Part shown: in pieces, positions 18,923 to 27,720 of the stretch
How the letters are laid out: each line of letters opens with the position of its first letter
How positions within the stretch are numbered: the stretch's first letter is position 1
Assembly (NCBI GenBank): GCA_027486405.1
Contig: JAIXPD010000053.1
Coordinates: forward strand, 1 to 64,000
Reading direction: 5' to 3'
From: Azospirillum sp.
Lineage (GTDB): Bacteria > Pseudomonadota > Alphaproteobacteria > Azospirillales > Azospirillaceae
DNA length: 64,000 nt
The notes under the pieces: model-generated
Seen by the model: only the letters and a program-made list of their open reading frames with translations
Database searches by the model: none
Told to the model about the DNA's origin: nothing
Program-made: the position numbers and the translations under genes

Positions 18923-20329
18923 TCACCCCCCCACCAACTGCCCGCCCTCGACCTTCTGGTTGCCCTTCAGGCCGATCGGTTGCTTGTTCAGGTAGTCGTT
19001 GGGCTTGCGGCCATCGAAGGGGATGCCGTCGATGAAGCCCGCATCGACCGGCTTGTAGCCGTCGCTGGTCCAGGGGAAATCGGCCTCCTTGGCCTTGCCC
19101 TCGTCGACCAGCAGCTTGGCGGCCTTCAGGTAGGTCTCGGGCTTGTAGACCTTGCGGGCCGTGTCCTCGTACCAGGAATCCGGCTTGGCTTCGGCGATCT
19201 GGCCCCAGCGGCGCATCTGGCTGAGGTACCAGACGGCGTCCGAATAGAAGGGGTAGGTGGCGTTGTAGCGGAAGAAGACGTTGAAATCGGGCACGTCGCG
19301 CTTGTCGCCCTTCTCATACTCGAAGGTCCCGGTCATCGAATTGGCGATCACCTTGGCGTCGGCCCCGACATACTCGGATTTGGCCAGGATCTTCACCGCT
19401 TCGGCCCGGTTGGCGTTGTTGTTCTCGTCCAGCCATTGGGCCGCACGGATCAGCGCCTTGACGACGGCCAGATGGGTGTTCGGGTTCTTCGTCGCCCAGG
19501 CGTCGGTCACGCCGAAGACCTTTTCCGGGTTGTTCTTCCAAATCTCGGTGTCGGTGATGACCGGGACGCCGATGCCCTTGACGACGGCCTGCTGGTTCCA
19601 GGGTTCCCCGACGGCGTAGCCGAAGATGGTCCCGGCCTCCAGCGTCGCCGGCATCTGCGGCGGCGGGGTGACGGAGAGCAGGGCGTCGGCCTGGATCTGG
19701 CCCGACACGTCGCTGGGGGCGTAATAGCCGGGGTTGATGCCGCCCGCCGCCAGCCAATAGCGCAGCTCGTAATTGTGGGTGGACACCGGGAAGACCATGC
19801 CCATGGTGAAGGGCTTGCCCGCCGCGCGGTAGTCGGCGATCACCGGCTTCAGCGCGTCGGCCTTGATCGGGTGGACCGGCTTGCCGTCGGCCCCCTTGGG
19901 CACGTTGGGCTTCATCTTCTGCCAGACGTCGTTCGACACGGTGATGCCGTTGCCGTTCAGGTCCATGGAAAAGGCGGTGACGATGTGGGCCTGGGTGCCA
20001 AAGCCGATGGTCGCCCCCAGCGGCTGCCCGGCCAGCATGTGCGCGCCGTCCAACTCGCCGGAGATGACGCGGTCGAGCAGCACCTTCCAGTTGGCTTGCG
20101 GTTCCAGCGTCACCGACAGCCCTTCATCCTCGAAGAAGCCCTTTTCGACGGCGATGGCGAGCGGGGCCATGTCGGTCAGCTTGATGAAGCCGAGCTTCAG
20201 TTGCTCCTTTTCCACCGTCAGCGGGGCGGCGAAGGTCGGAACGGCCAGCGTCAGGGCGATGGCGGCGGCGGCGGACGCCAGCAGGGGGCGGAAGGCCAGT
20301 CGGGTGCGGAAGGAACGGGCGGTCATCAC
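18923..20329 (-). CDS. nrtA: Nitrate ABC transporter substrate-binding protein
   Basis: Signal peptide; [61 protein letters not shown]. Confidence 0.92.
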
Positions 20330-20603
20330 GTCGGTTGCTCCATCTCAGAAAGCCGGACCATCGGGCGGCGGCGGCGACACCGGCGGGTGCCAATCCGAAA
20401 GGGCTGTTTTTTGGGCAGCGGCGCGGCGGCCGGGGTTCCCAAGAACGCGTCCCGTTGGATCGGCTCCCGAACACCCGGCAAGCGGCGGCAAGGCTGCTTG
20501 TGCGGTGCGGGAAACCGGGGTCGGCAACACTGCCGGGGGATGGCCCAACGTTGGACGCTGTGGGATGCGCACCGTCGTTGGCGCGTCTCTCGCCCCGATC
20601 TTT

Positions 20604-20619
20604 CGCAAGGCTCATGCCA
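20604..20619 (-). promoter_or_regulatory. Candidate sigma54 promoter for nrtABC
   Basis: Minus-strand TGGCATGAGCCTTGCG with GG-N10-GC spacing. Confidence 0.6.
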
Positions 20620-20894: not shown

Positions 20895-20910
20895 TGGCAC
20901 GCGCCTTGCG
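20895..20910 (+). promoter_or_regulatory. Sigma54 promoter for nirBD-nasA-cobA
   Basis: TGGCACGCGCCTTGCG, GG-N10-GC, about 258 nt upstream of nirB. Confidence 0.8.
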
Positions 20911-20947
20911 AAGAGAGCGGCGAGACAAAGAGAGCGGCGAGACAAAA

Positions 20948-20979
20948 GGCGGAGGTCGGCAACGTCGCCGACCACCGCC
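20948..20979 (+). ncRNA. Leader hairpin with A1/G4 hexaloop, ANTAR (NasT/NasR)-type target
   Basis: GGCGG-A-GGTCGGC-AACGTC-GCCGACC-A-CCGCC. Confidence 0.65.
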
Positions 20980-21047
20980 GCAGGGCCGGATCCGGGCGAC
21001 GCGGCGCGGATATCGGCCATGGTTCGACGACGAACCGCCCGGACAAC

Positions 21048-21115
21048 GGCGTCCGATCCGGCAGGCCCCCATTCCACGGGATGGGCACGCCCGCCGGTTC
21101 GGACGCCTTTTTTTT
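21048..21115 (+). terminator. Intrinsic terminator in the nirB leader (attenuator)
   Basis: GGCGTCCGATCCGGC ... GCCGGTTCGGACGCC followed by TTTTTTTT. Confidence 0.8.
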
Positions 21116-21167
21116 GGCCCCGCGCCCCGCCGACACGGCCGGGCGGACACGAGACGAGGCAGACGCC

Positions 21168-23696
21168 ATGGACATGCACCACCCGATCTCATCGCCCGAC
21201 GGGCAAAACGTCGCGCAGGACACCCCGCGCAAGGAACGCCTGGTCGTTGTCGGCAACGGCATGGCCGGGATGCGCACGGTGGAGGAGCTGTTGGCCAAGG
21301 CCCCCGGCCGTTACGACATCACCGTGTTCGGCGCGGAACCGCTGCCCAACTACAACCGCATCATGCTGTCGCCGGTGCTGGCGGGCGAAAAGACCTTTGA
21401 CCAGATCGTGCTGAACAGCCGCGCCTGGTACGAGGAGAACGCCATCACCCTGTTGACCGGGGAGCCGGTGGAGCGCATCGACCGTGCCGCGAAAACGGTC
21501 ACGTCGGTGGGCGGGCGGGTGGTGGCCTATGACCGGCTGCTGCTGGCGACCGGGTCTATGCCCTTCATCATCCCGGTGCCGGGATCGACCCTGCCGGGGG
21601 TGATCGGCTTCCGCGATCTGGCCGATGTGGACGCGATGCTGGCCGCCGCCGCCAATGGCGGGCGCGCCGTCGTCATCGGTGGCGGCCTGCTGGGGCTGGA
21701 GGCCGCCAACGGCCTGCGGGTGAAGGGGATGGACGTCACCGTCGTCCACCTGATGCCGACGCTGATGGAACGCCAGCTCGACCCGGCGGCGGGCCAATTG
21801 CTGCAACAGGAGCTGGAACGGCGCGGCATCGCCGTGCTGACCGGGGCCGACACCGCTGAAATTGTGGGCAGCGATGTTTCGGGCGGCTTGCGGGCCGAGG
21901 CGGTCCGTCTGAAGGATGGCCGGGTGCTGCCCGCCGACCTTGTGGTGATGGCGGTCGGCATCCGCCCCAACATGGCCTTGGGCAAGGCGGCGGGGCTGGA
22001 GTGCGGGCGCGGCGTCAAGGTGGACGACGCGATGCGCACCAGCGACCCGGTGATCTTCGCGGTGGGCGAATGCGTCGAGCATCGCGGCCTGACCTATGGC
22101 CTTGTCGCCCCGCTGTTCGAAATGGCGAAGGTGCTGGCCGACGCGCTGGCGGGCGGGCAGGGCGGTGCCTACACCGGCTCCGTCACCTCCACCAAGCTGA
22201 AGGTCACGGGCGTGGACGTGTTTTCCGCCGGGGATTTCTCCGGTGGCGCGGGCACGGAGGAGATCGTGTTCCGCGACCCGGCGCGCGGCGTTTACAAGCG
22301 TCTGGTCCTGAAGGACAACCGGCTGTTGGGCGCGGTGCTGTACGGCGACACCAAGGACGGCGGTTGGTATTTTTCCCTGCTGAAGGATGGGGCCGACGTC
22401 AGCGCCGAGCGCGACACGATGATTTTCGGCCCGAATTTCAGCGCTGGGGGCTTCGGGGGGGCCGACGCCGGAAACCCTAAGGCCGCCGTTGCCGCCCTTC
22501 CCGACAGCGCGGAAATTTGCGGCTGCAACGGCGTGCGCAAGGGGACCATCGTCAAGGCCATCACCGACAAGGGCCTGACCAGCCTGGACGAGGTGCGCGC
22601 CCACACCAAGGCGTCGGCCTCCTGCGGAAGTTGCACCGGCACGGTGGAAGCGCTGCTGGCGGTGACGGCGGGCGATGCCTTCACGGCGGCCCCGGCGGTC
22701 AAGCCGATGTGCACATGCACCCATCACAGCCACGACGCGGTGCGCGCCGCCATCGTCGCCCAAAATCTGCGCACGATGCGCGACGTCTTCACCGCGCTGG
22801 ACTGGACGACGGCGGACGGTTGCGCCTCCTGCCGTCCGGCGCTGAACTATTACCTGCTGTGCGCCTGGCCGGGCGAATACGCCGACGATTACCAGTCGCG
22901 CTTCATCAACGAACGCGCCCACGCCAACATCCAAAAGGACGGGACCTATTCGGTGGTTCCGCGCATGTGGGGCGGGCTGACCAGCGCGTCCGAATTGCGG
23001 GCCATCGCCGATGTGGTGGACAAATTCGCCATCCCCACGGTGAAGGTCACGGGCGGCCAGCGCATCGACCTGTTCGGCGTGAAGAAAGAGGATCTGCCCG
23101 CCGTGTGGGCGGATCTGAACGCGGCGGGCATGGTGTCCGGCCACGCCTACGCCAAGGGCCTGCGCACGGTGAAGACCTGCGTCGGGTCGGAATGGTGCCG
23201 CTTCGGCACGCAGGATTCCACCGGGCTGGGGGTGAAGCTGGAGCGCATGACCTGGGGGACCTGGACCCCGCACAAGGTCAAGCTGGCGGTGTCCGGCTGC
23301 CCGCGCAACTGCGCGGAGGCGACCATCAAGGATCTGGGCGTGGTCTGCGTGGACAGCGGCTATGAACTGCACGTTGGCGGCAACGGCGGCCTGCACGTCC
23401 GCGCCTGCGACCTGCTGGTGAAGGTGGCGACGGAGGAGGAGGTGTTGGAATACACCGGGGCCTTCATGCAGCTCTACCGCGAAGAGGCCCGCTATCTGGA
23501 GCGCACCGCCCCATGGGTGGAGCGGGTCGGGCTGGACCACATCACGCGCGCGCTGGTCGATGACGCCGAAGGGCGCAAGGCGCTGCACGCCCGTTTCCTG
23601 TTCTCGCAACGCTTCTCGCAAGACGATCCGTGGGCCGAACGCGCCGCCAAGGGCGTGGACCGTCACGAATTCTCGCTGCTCGCCAAGGTGGGGTAA
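21168..23696 (+). CDS. nirB: Assimilatory nitrite reductase [NAD(P)H] large subunit
   Basis: FAD/NAD domain, BFD-like Cys motifs, siroheme site VSGCPRNCAEATIKDLGVVCVDSGYELHVGGNGG. Confidence 0.95.
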   Translation: MDMHHPISSPDGQNVAQDTPRKERLVVVGNGMAGMRTVEELLAKAPGRYDITVFGAEPLPNYNRIMLSPVLAGEKTFDQIVLNSRAWYEENAITLLTGEPVERIDRAAKTVTSVGGRVVAYDRLLLATGSMPFIIPVPGSTLPGVIGFRDLADVDAMLAAAANGGRAVVIGGGLLGLEAANGLRVKGMDVTVVHLMPTLMERQLDPAAGQLLQQELERRGIAVLTGADTAEIVGSDVSGGLRAEAVRLKDGRVLPADLVVMAVGIRPNMALGKAAGLECGRGVKVDDAMRTSDPVIFAVGECVEHRGLTYGLVAPLFEMAKVLADALAGGQGGAYTGSVTSTKLKVTGVDVFSAGDFSGGAGTEEIVFRDPARGVYKRLVLKDNRLLGAVLYGDTKDGGWYFSLLKDGADVSAERDTMIFGPNFSAGGFGGADAGNPKAAVAALPDSAEICGCNGVRKGTIVKAITDKGLTSLDEVRAHTKASASCGSCTGTVEALLAVTAGDAFTAAPAVKPMCTCTHHSHDAVRAAIVAQNLRTMRDVFTALDWTTADGCASCRPALNYYLLCAWPGEYADDYQSRFINERAHANIQKDGTYSVVPRMWGGLTSASELRAIADVVDKFAIPTVKVTGGQRIDLFGVKKEDLPAVWADLNAAGMVSGHAYAKGLRTVKTCVGSEWCRFGTQDSTGLGVKLERMTWGTWTPHKVKLAVSGCPRNCAEATIKDLGVVCVDSGYELHVGGNGGLHVRACDLLVKVATEEEVLEYTGAFMQLYREEARYLERTAPWVERVGLDHITRALVDDAEGRKALHARFLFSQRFSQDDPWAERAAKGVDRHEFSLLAKVG

Positions 23697-23701
23697 GACA
23701 C

Positions 23702-24118
23702 ATGGACCAGATCCTTTCCGCTCTCCCCCAACACACCACGACCGCAACAGCCCTGCCTGATGACACCGTATGGACGCCGGTCGGTCGGGTTGCCGACATC
23801 CCGGTGCTGGGGTCGCGCGTGATCCGCACGCCCGACGGCGACGTCGCCCTGTTCCGCACCGCCGACGACGCCGTGTTCGCCCTGCGCGACCGTTGCCCGC
23901 ACAAGAACGGGCCGCTGTCCCAGGGCATTGTCCATGGCCGCCGCGTCACCTGCCCGCTGCACAATTGGGTGATTGAGCTGACCACCGGCGAGGCGGTCGC
24001 CCCCGACGTCGGCAACGCCGGACACATCCCGGTGCGGGTGGAGGACGGCGCGGTGTCGGTGGCGTTGGGTCTGGCGACGGCGGGGCGGGGCGGCTGCAAA
24101 GGGGCGTGCCATGTTTGA
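23702..24118 (+). CDS. nirD: Nitrite reductase small subunit (Rieske-like)
   Basis: CPHKNGPLSQGIVHGRRVTCPLHNWVIEL. Confidence 0.93.
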   Translation: MDQILSALPQHTTTATALPDDTVWTPVGRVADIPVLGSRVIRTPDGDVALFRTADDAVFALRDRCPHKNGPLSQGIVHGRRVTCPLHNWVIELTTGEAVAPDVGNAGHIPVRVEDGAVSVALGLATAGRGGCKGACHV

Positions 24119-26840
24119 CGGGCCAGAGGTTGATCGGGCGGGCGGGAATGGGCCAGCCCCCGGCGCGTCGCGGGACACCCGCACCACCTGCCCCTATTGC
24201 GGGGTTGGTTGCGGCGTCGTCGCCACGGTGACGGTGGATCCGGCGACGGGGCAGGACCGGGTGAGCGTGCGCGGCGACGCCGACCACCCGGCCAACCGGG
24301 GGCGGCTCTGCTCCAAAGGCTCCGCGCTGGCCGACACGCTGGTGCGCGACGTGGACGGCGGCGGGCGGTTGCTGCACCCGGAAATCGACGGGCGGCGGGT
24401 GACGTGGGAGCGCGCCCTCGCTGAAGTCGCAACGCGCTTCGCCGACACCATCGCCCAGCACGGGCCGGATTCGGTGGCCTTCTACGTCTCCGGTCAGTTG
24501 CTGACGGAGGATTATTACGTCGCCAACAAGCTGATGAAGGGCTTCATCGGCGCGTCGAACATCGACACCAATTCGCGCCTGTGCATGGCGTCGTCCGTCG
24601 TCGGCCACAAGCGCGGGCTGGGGGCGGACGCGGTTCCGGGAAGCTACGCTGATTTTGAAACGGCCGATCTGGTGGTGCTGGTCGGCTCCAACCTCGCCTG
24701 GTGCCATCCGGTGCTGAATCAGCGTTTGCGGGCGGCGAAGGCGGCGCGCGGGACCCGGATCATCGTTGTCGATCCCCGCCGCACCGATTCCGTCGATGGG
24801 GCCGATGCCCATCTGGCGCTGGCGGCGGGCACCGATTCCGCGCTGTTCAACGGCCTGTTGGTCCATTTGCACGCGCGCGGGGCCACCGACGCCGCCTTCG
24901 TCGGCCGTCACACCGATGGGGAGGAGGAGGCGCTCGCCGCCGCCCGCGCCGACGCGCCGGATGTGGCCAGCGTCGCCCGGCGTTGCAAACTCAGCGAAGC
25001 GGAGGTCGCCGCCTTCTACGCTGAATTTGAAACGACGGAGAAGGTCGTCACCGTCTATTCCCAGGGTGTGAACCAGTCGAGCCAGGGGACCGACACCGTC
25101 AACAGCATCCTGAACGTCCATTTCCTCACCGGGCGGATCGGGCGGCCCGGCATGGGTCCCTTCTCCGTCACCGGCCAGCCCAACGCCATGGGCGGGCGCG
25201 AGGTTGGCGGGCTGGCGAACCAGTTGGCCGCCCATATGGGCTTTTCCGCCGAGGACACCAACCGGCTCGCCCGCTTCTGGAACGCGCCGCGCGTCGCCGC
25301 CCAACCGGGGCTGAAGGCGGTCGATCTGTTCCGCGCCATCGAACGCGGGCGGGTCAAGGCGGTGTGGATCATGGCGACCAACCCGGCGGTCAGCATGCCC
25401 GACGCCGGGCGGGTCCGCCGCGCGCTGGCGCTCTGCCCCACCGTGGTGGTGTCCGACTGCATCCGCGACACCGACACCGGGCGGTTCGCCCACATCCGCC
25501 TGCCCGCCGCCGGGTGGAGCGAGAAGGACGGGACCGTCACCAACTCCGACCGCACCATCTCGCGCCAGCGCGCCTTCCGCGCGCCGGAGGGGGAGGCGCG
25601 GCCCGATTGGTGGATCGTCACCCAGGTGGCCCGGCGCATGGGCTTCGCCGACGCCTTCGGCTTCGACAGCCCGGCCGATGTGTTCCGCGAACACGCCGCC
25701 CTGTCGGCCTTTGAGAATGACGGGCGGCGGGCGTTCGACATCGGCGCGCTGGCGGCGGTGAGCGACGCTGATTTTGATACGCTGGTCCCGTTTCCCTGGC
25801 CGTGGCGGGCGGGCGGGCAACCGCAGGAGCGGCTGTTCACCGACCACCGCTTTTTCCACGAGGACCGGCGGGCGCGCTTCATCCCGGTGACGACGCGGCC
25901 CCTGCCGCGCAGCCTGCCCGACGGCGCGCTGCTGCTGAACACCGGGCGGTTGCGCGACCAGTGGCACACGATGACCCGCACCGGCCTGTCGGCCCGGCTG
26001 TCGGCCCACGCGCCCGAACCCTGTCTGGATCTGCACCCGATGGACGCGGCGGCGCGCGGCGTGACCGATGGCGGGCTGGCCCGCATCGTCACGACGGCGG
26101 GGGAGGCGCTGGCCCGCGTCCGCGTCACCGACGCGCAGACGCCGGGCACCGCCTTTCTGCCGATGCATTGGACCGACGCCTTCACCGGATCCTGCGTGAT
26201 CGGCCGCCTGATCGACGACGACGCGGTCGATGCGCTGTCGGGCCAACCCGATCTGAAGCGGATGCCCGCCACCGTCCTGCCCTATGAACCGGATTGGACC
26301 GCCTTTCTGCTGTCGCGCCAGCCGGTGACGCCGACGCACGACGGTTATTGGGCGCGCCGCGCGGTTCCGGGCGGGCATTTGATCGAGCTGGCCGGGCGCG
26401 GGCCGGTCCCGGATCTGGCCCCCGCCGGGTGGGACGCCGCGAGCGGCACGGCGATCAACTTCAGCGACGCCGCGCGCGGCAACCGGCGCACCGCGTGGCT
26501 GCGCGGCGACCGGCTGGACGCCTGCCTGTTCGTGGCCGCCGATGGGCGGTTGCCGGGGCGGACGTGGCTGGTCGGGCTGCTGGAGGGCGACGGGCTGGCC
26601 GACGCCGACCGCGCCGCCCTGCTGGCGGGCCGTGCCCCCGGCGCGCGGGCGGACGAGGGGCGGATCGTGTGTTCCTGTTTCAGCGTGGGCATCAACCGCC
26701 TGATCGCCGCGATCCGCGACCAGTCCCTGACCAGCGCCGAGGCGGTCGGCGCGGCGTTGAAGGCGGGGACCAATTGCGGCTCCTGCGTTCCCGAAATCAA
26801 GGAGGTGCTTCGTCATGCGGTTCAGCGCGAAATGGCGTGA
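24111..26840 (+). CDS. nasA: Assimilatory nitrate reductase catalytic subunit with C-terminal BFD-like [2Fe-2S] domain
   Basis: CPYCGVGCGV [4Fe-4S], molybdopterin motifs, SVTGQPNAMGGREVGG; C-terminal CSCFSVG...GTNCGSCVPE. Confidence 0.95.
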   Translation: MFDGPEVDRAGGNGPAPGASRDTRTTCPYCGVGCGVVATVTVDPATGQDRVSVRGDADHPANRGRLCSKGSALADTLVRDVDGGGRLLHPEIDGRRVTWERALAEVATRFADTIAQHGPDSVAFYVSGQLLTEDYYVANKLMKGFIGASNIDTNSRLCMASSVVGHKRGLGADAVPGSYADFETADLVVLVGSNLAWCHPVLNQRLRAAKAARGTRIIVVDPRRTDSVDGADAHLALAAGTDSALFNGLLVHLHARGATDAAFVGRHTDGEEEALAAARADAPDVASVARRCKLSEAEVAAFYAEFETTEKVVTVYSQGVNQSSQGTDTVNSILNVHFLTGRIGRPGMGPFSVTGQPNAMGGREVGGLANQLAAHMGFSAEDTNRLARFWNAPRVAAQPGLKAVDLFRAIERGRVKAVWIMATNPAVSMPDAGRVRRALALCPTVVVSDCIRDTDTGRFAHIRLPAAGWSEKDGTVTNSDRTISRQRAFRAPEGEARPDWWIVTQVARRMGFADAFGFDSPADVFREHAALSAFENDGRRAFDIGALAAVSDADFDTLVPFPWPWRAGGQPQERLFTDHRFFHEDRRARFIPVTTRPLPRSLPDGALLLNTGRLRDQWHTMTRTGLSARLSAHAPEPCLDLHPMDAAARGVTDGGLARIVTTAGEALARVRVTDAQTPGTAFLPMHWTDAFTGSCVIGRLIDDDAVDALSGQPDLKRMPATVLPYEPDWTAFLLSRQPVTPTHDGYWARRAVPGGHLIELAGRGPVPDLAPAGWDAASGTAINFSDAARGNRRTAWLRGDRLDACLFVAADGRLPGRTWLVGLLEGDGLADADRAALLAGRAPGARADEGRIVCSCFSVGINRLIAAIRDQSLTSAEAVGAALKAGTNCGSCVPEIKEVLRHAVQREMA
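24419..24435 (+). repeat. Off-origin iteron in nasA
   Basis: CGCTGAAGTCGCAACGC, 16/17 identical to origin copies 7326 and 7358. Confidence 0.85.
24647..24663 (+). repeat. Off-origin iteron-like 17-mer in nasA
   Basis: CGCTGATTTTGAAACGG. Confidence 0.8.
24708..24724 (-). repeat. Off-origin iteron-like 17-mer in nasA (weaker)
   Basis: CGCTGATTCAGCACCGG; compare origin CGCTGAATCAGAAACGG. Confidence 0.5.
24980..24996 (-). repeat. Off-origin iteron in nasA
   Basis: CGCTGAGTTTGCAACGC, 16/17 identical to origin copy 7560. Confidence 0.8.
25019..25035 (+). repeat. Off-origin iteron in nasA
   Basis: CGCTGAATTTGAAACGA, 16/17 identical to origin copy 7694. Confidence 0.85.
25766..25782 (+). repeat. 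Off-origin iteron-like 17-mer in nasA
   Basis: CGCTGATTTTGATACGC, identical to the sbcC copies. Confidence 0.8.
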
Positions 26841-27720
26841 TGGCCTGATCCTGTTCGGTTTCCACCTGCTGTCCCCGGTTCTGCCCATCGCCGCGCGCGT
26901 CGGTGTCGGTGTCGGTGTCGGGGGCGGTGCGGGAGGCGGGGCGGATCGGCCCGGCGTTGGCAGCGTCACCCTGGTCGGGGCCGGGCCGGGCGATCCCGAT
27001 CTGTTGACGGTGGCGGCGGTCAAGGCGCTGGCGGCGGCGGACGTCGTGCTGTTCGACCATCTGGTCGGCGACGGCATCCTCGACCTTGCCCCGCCCGGTG
27101 CCGAGCGGATTTGCGTGGGCAAGCGGTCGGGCCGTCATTCCCTGCCGCAGGAGGAGATCAACGCGCGGATCGCGCAACAGGCGCTGTTGGGGCGGCGGGT
27201 GGTGCGGCTGAAGGGCGGCGACCCGATGATCTTCGGGCGCGCGGGCGAGGAGATCGATCATCTCGACGCGTTGGGCATCCCCGTGCGCGTCATCCCCGGC
27301 ATCACCGCCGCGCTGGGCTGTGCCGCCTCCGCCGGTCTGTCGCTGACCAAGCGCGGCGTGGCCCGCGCCGTCACCTTCGTCACCGCCCATGGCCGCGACG
27401 GCGAACGCTTCGAACCCGATTGGGCGCGGCTGGCCAGCCCGGACACGACGTTGGCGATCTATATGGGCCGCGAACAGGCGCGCGCCGCCGGGGCGGGCCT
27501 GCGCGCCGCCGGTCTGCCCGGCGACACCCCGGTGCTGGCGGTGGAAAACGGCTGCCGCCCCGACGAACGCCGCGTCCACACCACGTTGGGCGCGATGGCG
27601 GTGGATGGCGTCGCGGCGGGCAAAGGCCCGACGCTGCTGCTGATCGGCGCGGCGCTGGCCGCGCGCGGCACGGGCGAACCGACGGAGGTCTGCGGCGCGG
27701 TGGCCGTCGAGGTCCGCTGA
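26815..27720 (+). CDS. cobA: Uroporphyrinogen-III C-methyltransferase (CobA/NirE), with N-terminal extension
   Basis: VTLVGAGPGDPDLLTVAAVKAL, RLKGGDPMIFGRAGEE, VIPGITAALGCAA. Confidence 0.93.
   Translation: MRFSAKWRDGLILFGFHLLSPVLPIAARVGVGVGVGGGAGGGADRPGVGSVTLVGAGPGDPDLLTVAAVKALAAADVVLFDHLVGDGILDLAPPGAERICVGKRSGRHSLPQEEINARIAQQALLGRRVVRLKGGDPMIFGRAGEEIDHLDALGIPVRVIPGITAALGCAASAGLSLTKRGVARAVTFVTAHGRDGERFEPDWARLASPDTTLAIYMGREQARAAGAGLRAAGLPGDTPVLAVENGCRPDERRVHTTLGAMAVDGVAAGKGPTLLLIGAALAARGTGEPTEVCGAVAVEVR

Follow-up and report, generated by a model that had tools for sequence, protein, structure and literature searches.

The accepted target of an ANTAR protein is a pair of hexaloop hairpins a few nucleotides apart. 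In the closest described system, EutV acting on eutP (Ramesh et al. 2012, PMC3369931), the first base of each hexaloop is A and the fourth is G (A1/G4 below), and the last hairpin overlaps the terminator. A longer gap between the hairpins destroys EutV function. EutV targets have linkers of about 5-12 nt, and a linker of 14 nt strongly reduced induction (PMC3369931); lengthening it by 20 nt abolished antitermination (PMC8934654). Mutations of loop position 1 greatly reduced EutV binding (PMC3369931).

Two further systems serve nitrate assimilation. In Klebsiella oxytoca, NasR acts on the nasF leader, where a piece with two hairpins, P1P2, suffices for full binding (PMC7496416). In Paracoccus denitrificans, nasT and nasS adjoin their target nasA, and the leader has a hairpin HI about 46 nt upstream of HII. 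Mutating HI abolished nasA induction (PMC5424462), which shows that in leaders of this class a hairpin far upstream can matter. Another paper on this organism (PMC3795266) speaks of "a series of regulatory hairpins" but shows no data on them. A search of the open-access literature found no report of an ANTAR target with more than two hexaloops.

The DNA studied here, called the window, is a stretch of 64,000 nucleotides from Azospirillum sp. It contains a leader before nirB that very probably works like an ANTAR antitermination switch, controlling the nirBD/nitrate-reductase operon. Like the eutP leader, it has A1/G4 hexaloops and a last hairpin that overlaps the terminator, and its genome also encodes an ANTAR protein. 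Unlike eutP, it has four hairpins and not two, its gap between canonical hairpins is 60 nt instead of 5-12 nt, and the one hairpin that is spaced near-normally, M, starts its loop with G. It also differs in having a sigma54 promoter and an unlinked regulator.

With the P. denitrificans nasA leader (PMC5424462, PMC3795266) it shares its setting in nitrate assimilation, a far upstream hairpin (there HI, which is needed), a terminator region and a NasT-like protein. Relatives of the nasA leader have a three-hairpin layout. Compared with P. denitrificans, the canonical loops in the window are farther from each other, at 84 nt, and two hairpins separate them. What the leader would have in common with nasF (PMC7496416) is nitrate-responsive ANTAR antitermination of assimilatory genes.

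Layout of the nirB leader

The leader lies between two groups of genes (Table 1). Downstream are nirB and the genes that follow it; on the other side is a divergent operon resembling a nitrate transporter, with a binding protein, a permease and an ATPase. On the plus strand the sequence reads sigma54 site, 17-nt tandem repeat, H1, I, M, P2, terminator and then nirB.

Table 1 Features of the nirB leader and its surroundings, with positions in the window.
Feature	Position	Strand	Details
nrtA-like nitrate-binding protein	18923..20326	-	PF13379, 325.6 bits; N-terminal signal-like stretch
Hexaloop array N1-N2-N3 before nrtA	20522..20585	-	loops AACGAC, AACGTT, AGTGTT, all A1/G4
Sigma54-type promoter, nrtA leader	20605..20619	-	TGGCAT-N5-TTGC, from sequence
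Sigma54-type promoter, nirB leader	20895..20909	+	TGGCAC-N5-TTGC, from sequence
17-nt tandem duplication	20912..20945	+	two copies of AGAGAGCGGCGAGACAA; 5' transcript end; not a hairpin
H1, upstream (recruitment) hairpin	20948..20979	+	GGCGG-A-GGTCGGC-AACGTC-GCCGACC-A-CCGCC; A1/G4
I, interposed hairpin	20992..21009	+	CCGGGC-GACGCG-GCGCGG; loop 20998-21003, G1/G4
M, interposed hairpin	21021..21036	+	GGTTC-GACGAC-GAACC; loop 21026-21031, G1/G4
P2, antiterminator hairpin	21040..21055	+	CGGAC-AACGGC-GTCCG; loop 21045-21050, A1/G4
Intrinsic terminator	stem 21048..21107, eight Ts 21108..21115	+	GGCGTCCG-AT-CCGGC ... GCCGG-TT-CGGACGCC
nirB, nitrite reductase large subunit	21168..23696	+	TIGR02374, 961.9 bits
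nirD frame, nitrite reductase small subunit	23630..24118	+	TIGR02378, 94.4 bits; true start inside
Assimilatory nitrate-reductase-like molybdopterin oxidoreductase	24111..26840	+	formate-dehydrogenase/NasC/NasA models, all below curated cut-offs
Uroporphyrinogen-III C-methyltransferase (siroheme supply)	26815..27720	+	TIGR01469, 257.3 bits

Several of these features had been put forward in the original prediction, made from the sequence alone: the sigma54 promoter, a leader of approximately 250 nt, the hairpin now called H1 and the terminator stem with its eight Ts. All were recovered. The promoter has its GG and GC elements at the sigma54 spacing. Transcription probably starts near 20921, which, with the nirB ATG at 21168, makes the leader about 247 nt long. 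Palindromes of NtrC type were sought upstream; they occur in chance numbers in the window, with nothing near the nirB promoter.

H1 has the hexaloop AACGTC (20961-20966), with the expected A and G, and a predicted pair probability of 1.0. The same prediction considered the usual second hairpin unclear and noted that a 17-nt tandem repeat sits in its place. The repeat does exist. The sister genome G031 (locus L004) has only one copy of the unit, however, so the duplication replaces no hairpin, and the idea of a hairpin hidden in it was discarded. The second hairpin is in fact clear. It is P2 and had been missed because H1 was taken for the hairpin nearest the terminator and its partner was looked for upstream, where the tandem repeat is. 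As P2 lies downstream of the reported hairpin, the latter is the upstream element of the pair.

The eight bases 21048-21055 (GGCGTCCG) are both the end of the P2 loop and stem and the 5' arm of the terminator. This makes P2 and the terminator mutually exclusive. In terms of sequence, the overlap is the classical layout of an ANTAR switch, as in Ramesh et al. (PMC3369931). Predicted folding gives the terminator form -112.4 kcal/mol and the P2 form -106.0 kcal/mol, so that without protein the terminator is better by 6.4 kcal/mol. Transcripts that end anywhere from 21056 to 21090 are predicted to fold P2, and the terminator is preferred once its 3' arm has been made.

A mechanism can be proposed on this basis. 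Without activated protein, the terminator (21048-21115) would form and transcription would stop before nirB. Nitrate or nitrite would release or activate the NasT-like receiver-ANTAR protein, whose gene is on a different contig. This protein would bind the A1/G4 loop of H1 while H1 emerges, and would then capture and stabilise P2, blocking the terminator. Hairpins I and M might bridge the 60-nt gap, either through stacking that holds H1 near P2 or by offering the protein weak places to land on the way.

An Rfam scan of the window returned no family match above the gathering score. The leader folds better than its shuffles (z = -5.3; no shuffle was equally good). Counting A1/G4 hexaloop hairpins with stems of 5 bp or more, it holds two, where shuffles lead one to expect 0.05 (P = 0.001).

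Conservation within the genus

A first search for relatives found 36 genomes of the same genus, and counts are given over 37, including the window's own. The latter is a draft of 96 contigs, 93.7% complete. For the nirB region the best matches are named Azospirillum plasmid records, at 81-85% identity.

The sigma54 site, H1, M, P2 and a T-run terminator are found upstream of nirB in 33 of the 37 genomes; in all 33 collected leaders the sigma54-like match is 5' of the hairpin array. A and G at loop positions 1 and 4 of H1 are kept in every aligned leader, and both H1 and P2 are A1/G4 hexaloops throughout. P2 is invariant or nearly so in the 33 leaders, as befits a stretch that has to pair in two alternative ways. 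Changes on both sides of a pair are seen in the stems of H1 and M; for H1 there are four such pairs in alignment A1 and four in alignment A4. The terminator pairs in 93.5% of cells across 19 genomes. Alignments A1 and A2 divide the leaders into clade A, with an insert that bears I, and a group without the insert.

One species group has its own form of H1. In leaders L007, L011-L013 and L015-L017 no more than two base pairs support the hexaloop, with two A-C mismatches below them, and this form is kept across the whole group.

Four genomes depart from the layout: G001, G013, G029 and G010. Two of them, G001 and G013, are the only ones of the 37 without an ANTAR gene. In G001 the region before nirB shows no hairpins; G013 lacks a nirB match as well. 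In G029 the ANTAR gene is directly upstream of nirB. G010 instead carries its array about 5 kb upstream of nirB, before nrtA. In the G001 leader (L023) the sigma54 site lies immediately 5' of the start codon, so that here the entire switch has been lost in nature.

It is at least conceivable that such hairpins are accidents of GC-rich DNA, where hairpins are favoured, and that the terminator is a constitutive attenuator or the end of an upstream transcript. This is very improbable. Arrays like those observed seldom arise in shuffled sequence (for the window leader, P is about 0.001 or lower), loop identities are kept across 33 genomes, and the ANTAR gene was lost together with the hairpins in one.

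A covariance-model search, which had been suggested as a check, was also run. The model, built partly from these leaders of related and thus not independent genomes, gives one strong match per genome, always at nirB; in the window's own genome it has E = 3e-8. With stricter filters, no target besides nirB was found in that genome at E up to 1. The score of another model, R1, was not accepted as evidence for H1. The insert carries a high cost in R1, which in the window therefore aligned its P1 to hairpin I, and its score reflects mainly M and P2.

The 60-nt gap and its two hairpins

The criterion used for the linker between A1/G4 hairpins was 5-12 nt as in eut, or 2-25 nt as in an actinobacterial set. 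H1 and P2 are well outside it, and M, at 3 nt from P2, has G at loop position 1. The leader is therefore filed as a variant and not as a canonical dual-hexaloop element. It has the A1/G4 pair and the terminator overlap of an ordinary ANTAR leader; the gap, with two more conserved hairpins in it, does not fit.

The gap also counts against the mechanism proposed above. It is beyond what EutV tolerates, and I and M have G1 where A1 is expected. In addition, the stem of I shows little covariation, and P2 is too conserved to show any.

Both I and M are conserved. The stem of M is paired in 100% of cells, with a compensatory change from UA to CG, and that of I in 83%, with slight covariation. M ends 3 nt before P2 in the window and 3 to 8 nt before it in relatives. 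Position 4 of the M loop is G in all 33 leaders; apart from an A1 in the M of two genomes, I and M have the G4 only. None of 2000 shuffles reached the four hexaloop-like hairpins of the window leader (mean 0.33), in a test that was framed post hoc. In the predicted fold, I is lengthened by an outer stem and keeps its hexaloop, and M, which a G-C pair can close further, appears as a tetraloop.

There are two ways to see these hairpins. Possibly they are only structural, or act as anti-antiterminators, and fix how far H1 lies from P2, with the protein touching H1 and P2 alone. This reading comes just short of an even chance. The G1 loops and the possible tetraloop agree with it. So does an alternative fold of the longer leader, in which CCGGGCG of the insert is paired to the CGCCCGG where P2 starts. 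Against it is the loop of I, where GACG is invariant in 19/19 clade-A leaders and the last two loop bases and some stem positions vary, which is more than a mere spacer would need.

The other reading is that I and M are true but weaker ANTAR sites, and that the protein is handed from H1 to I, M and finally P2 while the RNA is being made. This is tentative and, on balance, doubtful. The published model for EutV does have single hexaloops bound successively (PMC8934654), and all I and M loops have G as their fourth base. The G1 of I and M in nirB leaders speaks against it, since position-1 mutants bind EutV far less (PMC3369931), as does the tetraloop that M may form.

Paralogous leaders favour such a handover. 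The leader before nrtA in G010 and the one before a NasS-like gene in G023 have four A1/G4 hexaloops each, and a paralogous leader in G003 has three. All of these start with a sigma54-like site and end with a terminator that overlaps P2, and in all of them the hairpin at the M position is A1/G4. G058, from another family of the class, has three hexaloops, of which the middle one begins with G.

The divergent nrtA leader in the window is a further point for a handover. Its three A1/G4 hexaloops are kept in 13 genomes, with loop positions 1 and 4 invariant and others varying in N2 and N3; the stems are nearly invariant. It also gives a weak minus-strand match to a covariance model in the window (E 0.0057). 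Its fold is no better than that of shuffles (z = -0.68), and no T-run terminator was found when one was sought in this minus-strand leader in the window.

The wider Alphaproteobacteria point towards a structural role for the middle hairpin. From 80 alphaproteobacterial NasT loci, 47 elements with P2 and terminator were located. An A1/G4 hexaloop 38-56 nt upstream of the P2 loop is present in 34 of these, where mononucleotide shuffles give 0.8. A middle hairpin at the M position is similarly general, with varied loops (40/47, 8.3 expected), and is a hexaloop in 22/47 (2.7 expected). In Rhodobacterales the middle loop is often not A1/G4 and often no hexaloop at all, which favours a structural role there and weighs against a handover.

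The ANTAR protein and its sensor

The original prediction saw no nasST gene in the window and concluded that control would act in trans. Searching the rest of the genome, another of its suggested checks, agrees with this. There is one ANTAR protein, NasT-like, and it is encoded on contig C21 and not on that of the window, which supports control in trans. It (locus L001) combines a receiver domain (PF00072) with an ANTAR domain (PF03861); the latter, at G000:C21:96364-96519, scores 75.5 bits against a cut-off of 27.3. With the overlap of P2 and terminator, the 33 genomes and the joint loss in one genome, the protein supports nitrate-responsive ANTAR antitermination in trans, from a sigma54 promoter.

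The second half of NasST fared less well, as no nasS adjoins this gene. Next to it lie a NIT-MCP gene, probably broken, and a receiver-BLUF gene. A NasS-like protein is encoded on a third contig, unlinked to it (L077; L210:5004-6314, G000:C24). This is an NrtA homologue without an obvious signal peptide, 74% identical to a gene that adjoins nasT in G003.

The C24 gene is preceded by TGGCACGCGGCGTGCT, about 40 nt upstream of its ATG, and lacks the hexaloop array that the G003 orthologue (L092) carries. The receiver-BLUF gene (L001:1691-2557, minus strand), for a blue-light sensor, is convergent to the ANTAR gene.

The NIT-MCP gene (L001:476-1087, G000:C21) precedes the ANTAR gene and is intact in G031 and G036. 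Compared with G031, about 1.43 kb is gone between 12-bp direct repeats, and there is a gap of 2 bases as well. Unless this is an assembly error, the gene is probably broken, which makes the signal input uncertain.

The protein that reads the leader might be controlled not by NasS-type nitrate binding, but for example by a partner like a NIT-domain chemoreceptor, lost here. The receiver-ANTAR gene does lie directly 3' of the NIT-MCP gene in G031 and G036, and NIT and ANTAR form one protein in 15 genomes of the genus, most of which have the same nirB RNA. Still, the adjacency may be incidental, and a NasS-like protein is present in the genome itself; such a partner seems unlikely.

The genus uses two kinds of reader. 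NIT-ANTAR fusions give the best ANTAR match in 15 relatives (L034-L036, L039-L048, L052 and L061), and 20 genomes, the window's included, have a receiver-ANTAR or receiver-like-ANTAR protein (such as L001, L054, L050, L049 and L053); for eight members the class was taken from their group. NasR-like NIT-ANTAR proteins would serve many Azospirillum relatives on the same nirB RNA. The window's genome differs from the NasR case: its ANTAR protein is a receiver-ANTAR, and no protein with both NIT and ANTAR was found in it. Judged by these gene sets, the nirB RNA layout is common to both groups: the target is conserved and the sensor exchanged.

To sum up, nature has kept a leader whose 60-nt gap is filled by two conserved hairpins, and there are paralogous leaders that have four canonical hexaloops. 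With these, how one dimer acts on successive hexaloops becomes directly testable. A broader idea, offered with some reserve, is that alphaproteobacterial nitrate leaders could be arrays of three or four hexaloops that relay an ANTAR protein past the short-linker rule, read by NIT-ANTAR or receiver-ANTAR proteins. Searches for the dual motif would score such leaders poorly, so alphaproteobacterial nitrate regulons may be under-annotated. The exchange of NIT-ANTAR and receiver-ANTAR proteins on one RNA amounts to a natural experiment, in which the sensor is swapped and the target kept.
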